In this document: positions 27,813-37,604 of the stretch, in pieces
Layout of the letters: each line of letters starts with the position of its first letter
Numbering within the stretch: position 1 is the stretch's first letter
Assembly: GCA_027415345.1 (NCBI GenBank)
Contig: DAIBTC010000003.1
Location: forward strand, 1-47,493
Direction: 5' to 3'
Source: Nitrospirota bacterium
GTDB taxonomy: Bacteria; Nitrospirota; Leptospirillia; Leptospirillales; Leptospirillaceae
Length of the DNA stretch: 47,493 nt
Program-made: the position numbers and the translations under genes
Notes under the pieces: generated by a model
What the model was told of the DNA's origin: nothing
Database searches by the model: none
Seen by the model: the letters and a program-made list of their open reading frames with translations, nothing else

Positions 27813-27847
27813 GGACAAAAATTCCAATCATTCCGCGAGGACAGGTG

Positions 27848-28624
27848 ATGGTTGTTTCGAGGTCTGGATCAGGCCTTTTCTCTTCGCTTACCCGGGCCGG
27901 GATCCTGTTGGGAGCGCTCCTTGCCCTTTTCCCCTCCCGGGCCAGGGGGGCCGACACGGAGGCCGCCCTCATCGCCTGGGGCCACACCATCGCCATGCAG
28001 GGAAACGGCCTTCCCGGAAACACCGCCTGCGCCGAATGCCACCGGATCAACGGAGGGGGCATGCCCTCCGTGGGGATTCCCCGGATCGCCGGCCAGACCG
28101 AAACCTACATCTATCGCGAGATCCGTGGCGTCCAGGAGGGAACCCGGTACTCCCCCTACATGGACGGAATCGTCCAGAACCTCTCGCGCCGGGACATCCG
28201 GGCCGTCGCCCTCTACTACTCGACCGTCCGCACCCCCAAGCTTAACGATCCCGCCTCCTACAACCCGGCCCTCCGGGAGCTCGGCCGCCGGATCGCCCAC
28301 CGGGGACTCTGGGACCGGAACATCCCGGCCTGCATCCTCTGCCATGGCCAGGACGGGCGTGGAATCCCCCCGAACTTTCCCTATATCGCCGGCCAGAGCA
28401 CGACCTATCTCATGGGCCAGCTGATCTCCTTTGCCGTCGTCCGCCGCAAGGACGACCCCGAAGGCCTGATGCGGGGCATCGCCTCGAAGCTTACCCACCG
28501 TGAAATCAAGGCGGTCGCCCAGTACTTCGCCAGCCTCGATCCCCCCGTCTATGGAAAAATCCCCGAAAAAAACCGGCCGGACCGCCTCCGGCTCATTCCC
28601 GAGAAGGAGACCCCGACCCCATGA
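27848..28624 (+). CDS. Diheme cytochrome c4-like protein (TsdB-like)
   Basis: Signal peptide, two CxxCH motifs (CAECH, CILCH) in two homologous halves. Confidence 0.75.
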   Translation: MVVSRSGSGLFSSLTRAGILLGALLALFPSRARGADTEAALIAWGHTIAMQGNGLPGNTACAECHRINGGGMPSVGIPRIAGQTETYIYREIRGVQEGTRYSPYMDGIVQNLSRRDIRAVALYYSTVRTPKLNDPASYNPALRELGRRIAHRGLWDRNIPACILCHGQDGRGIPPNFPYIAGQSTTYLMGQLISFAVVRRKDDPEGLMRGIASKLTHREIKAVAQYFASLDPPVYGKIPEKNRPDRLRLIPEKETPTP

Positions 28625-29430
28625 CCGCCCGATCCCTGATCCTATTGATTCTTCTTGCCGCAGGACTTCTTCTCGATCCCCGGCCGACCGGGGCCACCGG
28701 GAACCAAAACTTCCAGTTCTTCGCTCCTCCCGCGGAGGGCACCCTGCCCAACGGACCCCTGGGACGGCTCATCCGCCAGGGGGAGCTGATCTTCATCCAC
28801 ACCGGCCAGTACGCCCCCCGGTACGTCGGAAACGACCTTACCTGCGAAAGCTGCCATCTCGACCGGGGGATCAAGCCCTATTCGGCCCCGCTCTGGGGGG
28901 CCTACGGAACCTATCCGCGCTACCGGAGCAAGAACCACCAGGTCAACACCCTCGAAGAGAGGATCCAGGGCTGCTTCCGCTTCTCCCTGAACGGAACCCC
29001 TCCCCCGGTCGGGAGCAAGACGATGAAGGCCCTTATCGCCTACAGCTTCTGGGTCTCCCGGGGAGCCCCGGTCGGTCTCTACCTGAAGGGACAGGGGATC
29101 GTCCGGATGTCGAAGCCGGCCCGTCCTCCCGATCCCCTTCGGGGAAAGGCGATCTTCGAGGCCCGGTGCTCCCTCTGCCACGGCCTGGACGGACAGGGCA
29201 CCCAGTCGGACAACGACCAGGTGGCCTTCCCCCCGGTCTGGGGACCGCATTCCTACACCAAGGGGGCGGGTTTTTACAAGGTGTCCAAACTCGCGGGGTT
29301 CGTAAAAATGAACATGCCCCTTTCCAAGGGGGAAACCCTCTCCGACCAGCAGGCCTGGGATGTGGCCGCCTACGTCGACAGCCAGCCTCGGCCCGAAGAT
29401 CCCAGAAAGGCCGAGGGGGGCAAGCCCTGA
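28621..29430 (+). CDS. Diheme cytochrome c, TsdA-like (thiosulfate dehydrogenase / tetrathionate reductase family)
   Basis: CESCH and CSLCH; HTGQYAPRYVGNDLTCESCHLDRGIKP, NTLEERIQGCFRFSLNG (candidate Cys heme ligand), FVKMNMP, DQQAWDVAAYVDSQPRPEDPR; ATGA overlap with upstream cytochrome. Confidence 0.65.
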   Translation: MTARSLILLILLAAGLLLDPRPTGATGNQNFQFFAPPAEGTLPNGPLGRLIRQGELIFIHTGQYAPRYVGNDLTCESCHLDRGIKPYSAPLWGAYGTYPRYRSKNHQVNTLEERIQGCFRFSLNGTPPPVGSKTMKALIAYSFWVSRGAPVGLYLKGQGIVRMSKPARPPDPLRGKAIFEARCSLCHGLDGQGTQSDNDQVAFPPVWGPHSYTKGAGFYKVSKLAGFVKMNMPLSKGETLSDQQAWDVAAYVDSQPRPEDPRKAEGGKP

Positions 29431-30191: not shown

Positions 30192-32552
30192 TCAGGGGGC
30201 GCCGGTCAGGTTGTAGAGACCGGCATCGGGAAGGGGCGTTCCCGTTGCCGCTTCGGTCAGGGGTTCCTCGCCCTTCTTGTACTCCTCCACGACGAATTTC
30301 CGGGCTGTGAGCGGAACGCGAAGACCCGTTTCGGGATCGATCCGGACATCGACGATGTCATCGGGAATCCGGAAGGTCTGGTTCGGAGGAAAGTACGGGA
30401 GGGACCCCTTCATCACATCCATCCAGATGGGCAGAGCGGCCTTGGCTCCGAATTCTCCGTGGCCCATGGACCGGTGATCGTCCATGCCGACATAGACTCC
30501 CACCACGAGACTGGGGGAAAAGCCGATGAACCAGGCGTCCCTGAAGTCGTTGGTGGTCCCGGTTTTTCCAGCGAGAAGGACTCCCAGGGAAAGGGCGTCC
30601 CTCCCCGTTCCCTCGCGGATCACGCTCTGCATCATGGAGGTCATGAGATAGCTGTAGGCCGGGTCGTAGACCGGACGGGGCTCGGGCACGAATCGGAAAA
30701 TGGTGGTCTTGTGGTAGTCGAAAACCCGGTCCACGGCATGGAGGGGCTCCCGGATCCCCTCGTTGGCGATGACGGAGTAGGCCCCGGTGATTTCGATGGG
30801 ACGCACCGTGGCCGAGCCCAGCGCCAGGGTCAGATCATGGGGAAGGGGTGTCGTGATCCCGAGCCTTCTCGCGAAATCGATCACCGATCCCACCCCCACC
30901 TTCCGGACGAGCCGGATGGTCGCCAGGTTGATCGACTCCGCCAGGGCCTTCCTCATGGGAACAGGACCCAGGAAATTCCTCTCGAAATCCTTCGGTCTCC
31001 AGACCCGGTGATGGATCCGGTCAAAAAAGACCAGGGGCGAATCATTCAGGATGCTACCCGGGGAAAATCCCTTCTCCAGGGCGGCCCCGTAATCGATCAC
31101 CTTGAAGACCGATCCCGGCTGCCTCAGGGCCTGGACGGCCCGGTTGAATTTGCTCCGCTTGAAGCTGTACCCGCCCACCATGGCCAGAATCCCCCCGGTC
31201 TTGGGGTCCAGGGCCACGACGGCCCCCTGGACCAGGGGAACCTGGTCCAGGGATCCCTCGAGGAGCCATCCGGACTTCTCCTTCGCGGAGGCCAGGATGT
31301 GGGCCATGACCACATCCCCCGGCCGCAGGATTTTCGACAGGGAAAAAGAAGAGAGAACCTTCCTGTCCCGGTTGATTTCGGGTCCGGAAAGAACCGTTTT
31401 GGCCCACTGGGCCCGTTCGACGGAGATACGCCCCAGGTGCTTCTCCAGGGAAAACCAGGCGTATTTCGGGCCGACCCGAAGGATCGTCACTTCGGAACGG
31501 GTCCCGGTCAGGTCCTCAAGCAGGGAAGCGTTTCCCGCGGGACGGGTCTCGCGAAGAACGGCCACAAGGGGCTTTCCGCGGAGGACCCGGATCGGTCCCC
31601 GGAACCCCTGCCTCCGGTCGATGGCCCGGAGCCCCTTCCGGAGGGCATGGACCGCCTGGAGCTGGATCCTCAGGTCAAGGGTCGTGAAGATCCTGAGCCC
31701 TCCGCCGAACAGTTTCTTCGCCGGCATCTCCCTTTCGAGCTTCTGGCGGACATACTCGAGAAAGTAGGCGCTGGGACTTGCCGAATGGGCGGGAGGGACC
31801 AGTTCGAGGGGAGCCGCGTAGGCCTTCTTCTTCTCCTCCAGGGTGATGTAGCGGACCTGGGCCATCCGGTCGAGAACGACCAGCTGGCGGCGCTTGCTGG
31901 CCTCGGGATGAAGAAAGGGGGAAAACTCGATGGGGGAGCGGATCATGCCCGCGATCATCGCCATCTCCGGCAGGGCCAGATCCGAGAGGGACTTTCCGAA
32001 ATAGGTCCTGGCCGCGGCCGACACCCCGTAGGCCCCTTCCCCGAAATAGATCTGGTTCAGGTAGAGTTCGAGGATCTCGTCCTTGGTCAGGACCTTTTCG
32101 ATCCGGTAGGAGAGAATCGCTTCCCGAAGCTTTCTGATGAAGGTCTTTCGGTGGGTCAGGAAGATGTTGCGCGCCAGCTGCTGGGTGATCGTGCTGGCCC
32201 CCTCGCGGAGATATCCGGCCAGGGCGTCCGAGATGGCCGCACGGATGATGGAGCCATAGGCCAGGGCGCCATGCTGGTAGAAGTGGGCATCCTCCACGGC
32301 CAGAATGCTGTGAATGACCAGCGGAGGAATTTTTCCCAGCGGGACATACTCCCGGCGCTCCTTGTAGAAGGATCCGATTCTCTGGCCGTTTCGATCATAG
32401 ATGTGGGAGGTGGTGAAGGGAACGTAATGGCGCAGGAAGTCGACCGACGGAACTCCCGCGACAACACGCTTGTAGAAATAGTACCCGGCCGTTCCGGCCG
32501 TCCCTCCGACGATCAGGAGGAGGATGAGGGATATGAGAAGGAATTTTTTCAA
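30192..32552 (-). CDS. Penicillin-binding protein 1A family (transglycosylase/transpeptidase)
   Basis: ILAVEDAHFYQHGALAYGSIIRA, GASTITQQLARN, RQPGSVFKVIDYGAAL, AGKTGTTNDFRDAWFIGFSP. Confidence 0.95.
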   Translation of the reverse strand: MKKFLLISLILLLIVGGTAGTAGYYFYKRVVAGVPSVDFLRHYVPFTTSHIYDRNGQRIGSFYKERREYVPLGKIPPLVIHSILAVEDAHFYQHGALAYGSIIRAAISDALAGYLREGASTITQQLARNIFLTHRKTFIRKLREAILSYRIEKVLTKDEILELYLNQIYFGEGAYGVSAAARTYFGKSLSDLALPEMAMIAGMIRSPIEFSPFLHPEASKRRQLVVLDRMAQVRYITLEEKKKAYAAPLELVPPAHSASPSAYFLEYVRQKLEREMPAKKLFGGGLRIFTTLDLRIQLQAVHALRKGLRAIDRRQGFRGPIRVLRGKPLVAVLRETRPAGNASLLEDLTGTRSEVTILRVGPKYAWFSLEKHLGRISVERAQWAKTVLSGPEINRDRKVLSSFSLSKILRPGDVVMAHILASAKEKSGWLLEGSLDQVPLVQGAVVALDPKTGGILAMVGGYSFKRSKFNRAVQALRQPGSVFKVIDYGAALEKGFSPGSILNDSPLVFFDRIHHRVWRPKDFERNFLGPVPMRKALAESINLATIRLVRKVGVGSVIDFARRLGITTPLPHDLTLALGSATVRPIEITGAYSVIANEGIREPLHAVDRVFDYHKTTIFRFVPEPRPVYDPAYSYLMTSMMQSVIREGTGRDALSLGVLLAGKTGTTNDFRDAWFIGFSPSLVVGVYVGMDDHRSMGHGEFGAKAALPIWMDVMKGSLPYFPPNQTFRIPDDIVDVRIDPETGLRVPLTARKFVVEEYKKGEEPLTEAATGTPLPDAGLYNLTGAP

Positions 32553-32580
32553 GGTCGCCCGGAGGTCAGAGACATGCTGA

Positions 32581-32622
32581 AGAACAGAAAAGCGGGATCT
32601 CCCCGCCAGGGAGAAATCCCGC
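32581..32622 (-). terminator. Intrinsic terminator downstream of the 45-aa small ORF
   Basis: GCGGGAT/CTCCC-loop-GGGAG/ATCCCGC hairpin (32592-32622) followed on minus strand by TTTTCTGTTCT. Confidence 0.65.
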
Positions 32623-32737
32623 CCTCGAAATGAGGAATGAATCCATCAGAATAATGCCATAAAAAATGTCGTTTCAAAAACCTGTTGCCGTCATGTCTTG
32701 ATCGTTCCGGCAGGACCCGGAAACGACGCGGAAACCT

Positions 32738-32875
32738 CTACTTCTCGAAGGTCTTCATGATCGTGAATGCGGTCAGGAGGGCGACTCCGGTCAGGACGAC
32801 AAAAACCACGAAAAGGGTCATGTTGGCGTAGTTGGCTTCGGTAGGATTGAAAGAACCCATCTTGTAAATCTGCAT
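32738..32875 (-). CDS. Small single-TM protein, 45 aa (MQIYKMGSFNPTEANYANMTLFVVFVVLTGVALLTAFTIMKTFEK); absent from supplied ORF track
   Basis: ATG at 32875-32873 with GGGGAGGG SD, stop TAG 32740-32738; own promoter and downstream terminator. Confidence 0.75.
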   Translation of the reverse strand: MQIYKMGSFNPTEANYANMTLFVVFVVLTGVALLTAFTIMKTFEK

Positions 32876-32976
32876 AATCCCTCCCCAGAATGGCGTTCAT
32901 TGATTCGGTGCGATGCCGGCAGGCATCGGGCCCCGGGACAAGATGACATGAATTCCCAGATCCATAGGCAAAGCAC

Positions 32977-33005
32977 AATATACCCCAGAGAGAAGAAGGG
33001 GTCAA
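32977..33005 (-). promoter_or_regulatory. Strong sigma70-like promoter for the 45-aa small ORF
   Basis: On minus strand TTGACC (33005-33000), 17-nt spacer, TATATT (32982-32977). Confidence 0.72.
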
Positions 33006-33051
33006 CACCCGAAAACCGGAAAGAAAAAATTTGGATCCTCCGGGCCGGCTC

Positions 33052-33687
33052 CTATCCGGCCCGGGTCTCCCGGTCATGGGCGATGAAGTCGGAGAGGGTA
33101 AAAAAGGAGAAGAAGGGAACCCCCTGCTCCCGGAAACGGTCGCGCCCTCCCTCCTCCCGGTCGACCAGGGCCACCACCTCCATGACCTCGTATCCGTTTT
33201 CCCGGCAGGTCTGGACGGCGCGGAGGCCCGAGGCCCCGGTCGTCACGACATCCTCGACCACGATGACCCGGGCCCCGGGAACAAGGTCCCCCTCGACCGG
33301 GTTCTTCGTTCCGTGGCCCTTTGTCTCCTTCCGGACCACGAAGGCGGGGATGGGGCGGCGGTAGAGGCCGCTGACCAGGGAGGTCGCCACTCCGATCGGG
33401 TCGGCACCTAGTGTCAGCCCTCCGATCCCGTCGGGATCGCGGTTCGCGATCCGGTGGAAAAGGAGGTGGCCGATGAGGTACTGGGCCCGGCAATGACCAA
33501 GGGTGGTTTTCTTGCAATCGATATAGACCGGACTCGTCTTTCCCGAGGAGAGGGTGAAGGGATTGTCGGGTCGATAGAGAAAGGATCTCTCGTAGAGGGT
33601 CCGGAAGAGCTCCTCGCGGTCGGCCGCGAGCCGGGCCTCCCATTCATCGGGAGGAACGGGCTGGAGATGGGTGAGAAGTTCTACCAA
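33052..33687 (-). CDS. pyrE: Orotate phosphoribosyltransferase
   Basis: FTLSSGKTSPVYIDCKK, VIVVEDVVTTGASGLRAV (PRPP-binding motif). Confidence 0.93.
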   Translation of the reverse strand: MVELLTHLQPVPPDEWEARLAADREELFRTLYERSFLYRPDNPFTLSSGKTSPVYIDCKKTTLGHCRAQYLIGHLLFHRIANRDPDGIGGLTLGADPIGVATSLVSGLYRRPIPAFVVRKETKGHGTKNPVEGDLVPGARVIVVEDVVTTGASGLRAVQTCRENGYEVMEVVALVDREEGGRDRFREQGVPFFSFFTLSDFIAHDRETRAG

Positions 33688-35202: not shown

Positions 35203-37604
35203 TCCCCCTCCATCTCCACGGAAAAATCCCTTCCTTCCCACCGTTGGGAGGCGGTCCAGAAGAAGGTGAAGTCCACGGGAGCCTTCTGGCCGGGAGGCAG
35301 GAAAAGGTCGACATAGCCGCACCCGATGGCCGGCAGGAAGACCGCCTCCCGGTCCCCCACCGTTTTCCACCCGTCGGTGGAAAATCGGAGCCGGAAGGGC
35401 GAAAGGGCCAGGAGGCGAAGGGTCTGGCCCGGACGCATCCGCCGGAGCTGGCGGTTGAACTTCCAGATTTCCAGATCCCGGCGTCCCCCGCCCTCCAGAT
35501 AGCGCCTTCCCACCGACGGGAGCCGGTCGAAGACGACTCCGTCATTGACCGACCGGAGAAGACGGATGTATTCCGCATGGGCCCAGGCCAGCGGGTTCGC
35601 CGCCCCGGTCGGACGCCCTAAACGGCAGGAGGAGCCGGAGAGGTCGGGGCCGTCCCAGACCTGTTCGGGAATCAGCCCTCCGGCGGTCGCGAATCCCTCC
35701 ATCGCCCGGAGGTAGGGGAGAGGATCCCCTCCGGCGGCCAGTTCGTAGTGGCCCCTCTCTCCCGTGAGAAGGGGCCAGGCCCGCCCCGTCCCCCAGCCCA
35801 GGAAGGGCCCCCCGTCCTCCCGTTGCCCGTATCCGTCGTGGTTGTAACGCCGGAAACTGGGCCCGACGGGGGTCTCCACCCGGAGAAGGGCATCGATGAC
35901 CCTCACCGAGTCGACCACCAGGGGGTCGTCGGCCCGGCGGATCCCGTACCGGACAAGATCCAGGAACCCTCCGTCGACGATCTCCCGGGCCGGATAGCGG
36001 AAGGGGGTCCCCGGCGGCTGGTTGGCGAGCTCGATCCACGCCTGGTCGACCTCTTCCACCGGAGAGGGGTCCCCCGCCACCGTGGGGAGGATCCGGACGT
36101 AGTGGCGGGAGATCCCCGGCACGAGCGTCCCGGACCGGGTGGTCGTCCAGCCGTCGAGGCGGCTCTCGAGAAAGTCCGCATAGTCGAGGAAAAACTGGCC
36201 CTCCGCCCCGTCCCCCCGGCTCTGGGCCCAGAGGCCGGCACAGACCAGGGCGGAAATCATCGCCGCAAAGGTCGAGGGAGAATAGCCCCGGGCCTCCTCC
36301 CAGCGGTCCTGCTGGGTGGAGGGACCATGGCGCACGAGGTAGGAGGCGGCCGAGAGGACCAGCGGGTAGGGATCGAAGGCCTTGAGGCCGTTTTCCCGGT
36401 AAAGCCTCCAGGCCAGGATGACCGGATGGGCCACCCCGTCGAGCTGGATTCCCGTCCAGTAGGGGGATCCGTCCACCCAGAAGTTCTGGTGGAATCCCCC
36501 GTCGGAAAGCTGGCTGGCCGCCAGATAGACCAGGGCCCGGTAGGGGCTTTCGGCATCGCCGCAGGCCAGGAGGCCAAGGGCGCTGTGGCAGAGGTCCCGG
36601 GTCCAGACGAGGTGGTATCCTCCCAGACCGGCCTGGTCGTCGTGGAAGTCGCCCCAGGGGATGCTCTGGGAGGCGATGATGGCCCCGGGATAAAGCTTGT
36701 CCTCGTGGGAGCGGAGAATGTTGTGGCTGATCCGGTAGAGCCGTCCCCCGTCTCCTCCGTGGACGCCCAGGGGAAGGATCTTGTCGGAAACCCGGCTCCA
36801 CTGCTCGAGAAAGCGTCCCTTCTGTTCGATGTAGTGGATTCCCAAGGACTGGAAAAGGGTGGTCAGGGCCCCGTGCTGTCCCGTTCCGAAGGAGAGGCCG
36901 ACCGTGAACTCCTGGGAGCCGTCCACCGCCAGCTCCCCCACTCCCGCCACATTTCCGTCGGTGGCCCGGTCGAACTCCCAGCGAAGGGTCCGGTGGCGGA
37001 GAAGGTCGGTGACTCCGTCGCTTTCCCCCACGAACCCGCAGGAGAGGTGCCGGAAGGGGATGGTCGCCCCCAGGGCCATGTAGATTCCGTTCTTCCAGCC
37101 CAGAAGTCCGGTCTTGCCGGCATGGGAAAAGCGGCACAGACTGTTGCCGGCCCCTCCCACGTCGAGATGGGGCTCGACCACGACGAAGAGTCGGAGAATA
37201 TCGGCCAGGGCCGGATCGGCCTCGAGCCGGACGCGGATCAGAAGGCAGGGCAAATGGGGGTCCCCCATCACCTCCTTGACGAGACGGTAGCGCCCTTCGC
37301 GGTCGGAGGAGACGAGGCGGTAGCCCGGAGCCTCGGTCTCACCGAAAAAGGACAGATCGTGGCGAAGGTCCCGGCGCTCCTCGTGCACGAAGCGTCCGTC
37401 GGTGACAAGAAATTCCAGGTCCCGGATCTGGGGGCGGTCCACCGTGGGGTAGTAGATCTCGTTCACGATCCCGTGGGAGAGGGTGTACCAGAGGTTTGAG
37501 GCCGTATTGTAGGCCGTTCCGATTCCGTCCTTGCGGCTTGATGTCCAGCGGGGAGGCGACCCCGGATGGCCGAAGGCCTCCCCTCCCCTGTTTCCGTTAT
37601 TCAT
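35199..37604 (-). CDS. GH15 glucoamylase (glucan 1,4-alpha-glucosidase)
   Basis: KDGIGTAYNTASNLWYTLSHGIVNEIYYPTVD, GYHLVWTRDLCHSALGLLA, NPLAWAHAEYIRLLRS; GGGGAGG SD. Confidence 0.88.
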   Translation of the reverse strand: MNNGNRGGEAFGHPGSPPRWTSSRKDGIGTAYNTASNLWYTLSHGIVNEIYYPTVDRPQIRDLEFLVTDGRFVHEERRDLRHDLSFFGETEAPGYRLVSSDREGRYRLVKEVMGDPHLPCLLIRVRLEADPALADILRLFVVVEPHLDVGGAGNSLCRFSHAGKTGLLGWKNGIYMALGATIPFRHLSCGFVGESDGVTDLLRHRTLRWEFDRATDGNVAGVGELAVDGSQEFTVGLSFGTGQHGALTTLFQSLGIHYIEQKGRFLEQWSRVSDKILPLGVHGGDGGRLYRISHNILRSHEDKLYPGAIIASQSIPWGDFHDDQAGLGGYHLVWTRDLCHSALGLLACGDAESPYRALVYLAASQLSDGGFHQNFWVDGSPYWTGIQLDGVAHPVILAWRLYRENGLKAFDPYPLVLSAASYLVRHGPSTQQDRWEEARGYSPSTFAAMISALVCAGLWAQSRGDGAEGQFFLDYADFLESRLDGWTTTRSGTLVPGISRHYVRILPTVAGDPSPVEEVDQAWIELANQPPGTPFRYPAREIVDGGFLDLVRYGIRRADDPLVVDSVRVIDALLRVETPVGPSFRRYNHDGYGQREDGGPFLGWGTGRAWPLLTGERGHYELAAGGDPLPYLRAMEGFATAGGLIPEQVWDGPDLSGSSCRLGRPTGAANPLAWAHAEYIRLLRSVNDGVVFDRLPSVGRRYLEGGGRRDLEIWKFNRQLRRMRPGQTLRLLALSPFRLRFSTDGWKTVGDREAVFLPAIGCGYVDLFLPPGQKAPVDFTFFWTASQRWEGRDFSVEMEGE

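Follow-up and report, generated by a model that had tools for sequence, protein, structure and literature searches.

Gene organization of the pyrE-PBP1A region

The window, the 47,493-nucleotide stretch of DNA analysed here, is contig C282 of a 2.0 Mb assembly that is 82% complete. On its minus strand, flanked by pyrE and PBP1A, lies a gene for a protein of 45 amino acids (Table 1). A sequence-only reading had proposed a 45-codon ORF at this place, and the ORF was found as described, starting with ATG. The same reading had proposed that a small membrane protein is indeed encoded here, under a promoter and terminator of its own, a view that orthologues, dN/dS ratios and conserved signals now support.

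Table 1 Features of the small-protein locus in the window
Feature	Position	Strand	Basis or remark
45-aa single-TM protein gene	32738..32875	-	45 codons, ATG start; range includes the stop codon
Promoter TTGACC-N17-TATATT	32977..33005	-	Consensus match and conservation
7-bp leader hairpin CGATGCC-TGCC-GGCATCG	32911..32928	-	One clade only
GGGGAGGG Shine-Dalgarno-like sequence	32879..32886	-	Direct reading of the letters
Intrinsic-terminator-like hairpin and U-rich tail	32588..32626	-	Hairpin scan, fold z, counterpart in 20/20 genomes
Second promoter-like site TTGAAA-N18-TATTCT	32648..32677	-	Consensus scan; genus-conserved block downstream; function inferred

Two other places in the window were recorded. 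Two adjoining c-type cytochrome genes occupy 27845-29430 (plus strand), the second with a SoxA/TsdA-type domain. At 35704-35802 (minus strand), ARAGORN called a tRNA-Val inside a glucodextranase-like gene; this call is probably false because Rfam gave no tRNA-Val there.

Distribution and selection

A tblastn search detected the protein in the genome of the window, in 12 of the 13 remaining genomes of its genus, and in all seven genomes of four further genera. Intact orthologues are thus present in 20 of the 21 genomes of the Leptospirillum family, spread over five genera, and none shows the frameshifts or stop codons that the sequence-only reading had named as grounds for rejecting it. A core of 42 codons aligns across all 20 orthologues with neither gaps nor indels, the reading frame being kept at protein identities down to about 42%. 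At the N-terminus, the proteins of the four other genera are longer by 5-7 residues. In the sole family genome without the gene (G007), a close PBP1A orthologue is missing as well (best identity 36-38%), so the locus was probably not assembled there; wherever its locus was recovered, the gene is present, in a single copy.

A profile search of 346 Nitrospirota genomes recovered those 20 genomes at E ≤ 5.4e-26, with the next matches appearing only from 5e-4. The rest of the phylum gave seven weak matches (E 5e-4 to 0.01). Five were inspected and judged spurious, since they lay on the wrong strand of longer genes or out of frame with them, two being interrupted by stop codons. Scanning 85,462 GTDB species genomes returned 18 loci, every one from metagenome-assembled genomes (MAGs) of the Leptospirillum group, and the named carriers are Leptospirillum and "Nitrospirae bacterium" MAGs. 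No credible relative outside the family was found in either set, and searches of plasmids and phages gave no match to the 45-aa protein.

With the window copy as reference, dN/dS ranged from 0.05 to 0.13, far from the value near 1 that would have spoken against the gene, and the pooled pN/pS within the genus was 0.13. The frame is thus a coding one under purifying selection, and we conclude that the ORF is a genuine gene, single-copy in the Leptospirillum family.

Predicted structure and topology

The AlphaFold model (mean pLDDT 82.4) consists of one helix, residues 13-44, preceded by a loose N-terminus. There is one hydrophobic segment, and hydrophobicity over 19 residues peaks at residues 21-39; prediction thus bears out the single transmembrane helix noted in the sequence-only reading. 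Thirteen residues are invariant: Y4, K5, G7, P11, T20, L21, V23, F25, G30, I39, K41, F43, and E44; those at Y4, K5, G7, and P11 precede the helix, and those at I39, K41, F43, and E44 stand at its end. A conserved helix face gave no signal (p = 0.83). The net charge of the window copy is 0 on the N side and +1 on the C side, which weakly favours an N-out, C-in orientation. We consider it an inner-membrane protein whose N-terminus probably lies outside and whose short tail, KTFEK, inside; the topology is nevertheless uncertain, as three of the relatives checked have more lysine and arginine on the N side than on the C side.

Promoter, leader, and expression level

The promoter, earlier described as near-ideal, matches 10 of 12 consensus bases, and all 13 same-genus genomes retain its hexamers (TTGACC and TATA[T/G]T). 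Promoter-like sites number two in the 1-kb region, against a mean of 0.3 in shuffled sequences. These signals make transcription of the small gene from this promoter very probable. The leader would be about 95 nt long, counted from the predicted start site, and the Shine-Dalgarno-like sequence that had been reported could be seen in the letters ahead of the start codon. The leader hairpin stood up in part: the 7-bp stem exists in the window, but six of the 13 same-genus genomes lack it, and it is limited to one clade. Its loop had been quoted from the other strand, and on the gene strand reads TGCC. RNA comprising leader and gene folds no better than shuffled sequences (z = +1.0). In genus g3, the leaders (L028, L033, L034) contain a near-perfect palindrome, AAAAGTCGGCCGACTTTT, ahead of the start codon; its sequence is unrelated to the leader hairpin of the window.

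High expression, which had been suggested as a possibility, received no support from codon usage, which resembles that of background genes: 44-60% of background chunks were at least as ribosomal-like as the small gene, and just 0-8% of ribosomal chunks scored as low. The test is a weak one, with about 40 informative codons and, for the window copy, a ribosomal set taken from a relative (G002). The window's own genome yielded neither a ribosomal L2 nor a COX1 match, presumably owing to assembly gaps, and for this reason the ribosomal and COX1 tests were run on relatives.

The segment between the gene and PBP1A

Downstream of the gene, the scan found a hairpin of 17 pairs close to the position where a terminator had been proposed (32581-32622); the fold of the region scored z = -2.7. 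A hairpin with a U-rich tail lies 3' of the gene in every one of the 20 carriers, about 100-145 nt past the stop codon in 19 of them, and this arrangement suggests that the transcript very probably ends there.

The second promoter-like site, on which the sequence-only reading was silent, comes after the stop codon and ahead of the terminator. It is followed by a block conserved in the genus, and the motif CATTCCT...GAGGGCGGGRTT occurred once per genome in 11 of the 13 same-genus genomes searched, always at the locus upstream of PBP1A. The gene had been called an autonomous monocistron, which is plausible given its own promoter and terminator, but a second conserved promoter-like block before the terminator complicates that description. 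From the hairpin to the PBP1A start codon, the window has about 35 nt, too short for a separate PBP1A promoter, so the hairpin may double as an attenuator or as the end of a short RNA. We therefore list 32588-32677 as a segment that may encode a short RNA or a leader attenuator of PBP1A.

Comparison with known small membrane proteins

Searches of the Pfam, NCBIfam, PADLOC, and PHROGs libraries returned nothing credible for the 45-aa protein, a PDB profile search produced a single hit, to a chlorophyll-binding protein and attributable to chance (E 0.58), and a literature search found no paper describing it. The PsbN profile (PF02468) scored 11.8 bits against a curated cut-off of 25. SecE (PF00584) is a separate gene, over its cut-off in 5 of the 21 family genomes (G015, G002, and G017 among them).

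CydX (YbgT/YccB) of cytochrome bd is a small one-helix oxidase subunit and to that extent resembles the family protein; however, its profile (PF08173, YbgT_YccB) did not match, and the genuine CydX is another gene elsewhere, over the cut-off in 16/21 family genomes. Regulators of the AcrZ, KdpF, and MgtS type are of similar length, have one helix, and function as stand-alone proteins, whereas the family protein matches no Pfam or NCBIfam model. The FixQ profile (CcoQ/FixQ, PF05545) did not match the protein even at E 10; it exceeded its cut-off in 0/21 family genomes, although it is a weak detector, passing the threshold in just one of 14 control genomes. Like CcoQ/FixQ and CcoM, the latter given as a 36-aa subunit of cbb3 oxidases in PMC10433244, the family protein is a small one-helix membrane protein of comparable size; unlike them, it has no curated-model match and lies away from oxidase genes, adjoining pyrE and PBP1A and not encoded with ccoN, ccoO, and ccoP.

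Possible functions

A gene that is constantly present in one copy, under strong selection and with a promoter of its own, that is confined to one family, and whose product has invariant residues on either side of the helix looks more like one for a small constitutive subunit or an assembly factor than like a toxin gene or a mobile gene. We favour, with a probability of roughly 0.35, a role in a larger complex of the inner membrane, preferably one of the respiratory chain. The protein would insert into the inner membrane by its one helix and serve the complex as a small constitutive subunit or as a factor for assembly or stability; the host might be, for example, a stand-alone cbb3-like oxidase gene without a detected CcoQ. 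Cultured members of the Leptospirillum family live by iron oxidation, according to PMC7231039. COX1-family genes above the cut-off were present in 19 of 21 family genomes. One of them (L112, 8633-10057, genome G015) is cbb3-like by our reading, and no oxidase partner genes were recognised beside it. These findings would allow for a small subunit encoded elsewhere in the genome but are not evidence of one. Against a respiratory role stand the neighbours pyrE and PBP1A, with no genomic link to respiratory genes, the lack of homology to a known subunit or of a conserved helix face, and the weak topology evidence.

The main rival, close behind, is a regulatory role: the small protein would bind a transporter, protease, or envelope enzyme, possibly PBP1A, and adjust its activity, as AcrZ, KdpF, and MgtS do for their targets; we hold it as a tentative alternative. 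Size and one-helix build suit what is generally known of that class, and PBP1A lies just downstream of the gene in the window, as it does in three relatives of other genera, but the small gene has its own promoter and is separated from PBP1A by a terminator. The adjacency itself says little, because the order pyrE - PBP1A - gap is conserved.

Somewhat less likely still is a membrane protein of another kind, for instance an acid stress-adaptation peptide acting on the membrane itself. Confinement to a single acidophilic family (acidophily as given in PMC7231039) would suit such a peptide, while the invariant residues flanking the helix suggest a specific partner.

We consider it very unlikely that the protein is the type I toxin in a toxin-antitoxin pair: a short one-helix peptide and a leader hairpin in one clade recall such systems, but the single copy in each genome with a recovered locus, the constant neighbours, the strong purifying selection, and the lack of plasmid or phage relatives speak against it, and a simple consensus scan of 32400-33400 found no plus-strand promoter-like site for an antisense RNA. 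A chance ORF, or a non-coding RNA misread as protein, can be practically dismissed despite the short length and the absence from the ORF track of the sequence-only reading, since synonymous changes far exceed replacements and the indel-free frame survives the divergence given above.

Significance

The protein is a lineage-restricted newcomer of a familiar type, the small one-helix membrane proteins. Annotation tends to miss such proteins, and with this one their number grows by a gene that is firmly conserved across a whole family. Its host bacteria drive acid mine drainage and biomining. Within the favoured respiratory-chain reading, a bolder version, which we regard as improbable, makes the protein an obligatory, unrecognised subunit of the Leptospirillum iron-oxidation electron-transport chain, replacing CcoQ in an oxidase with scattered genes. 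If membership in that chain were true, the protein would provide a way into a complex of only partly known composition.
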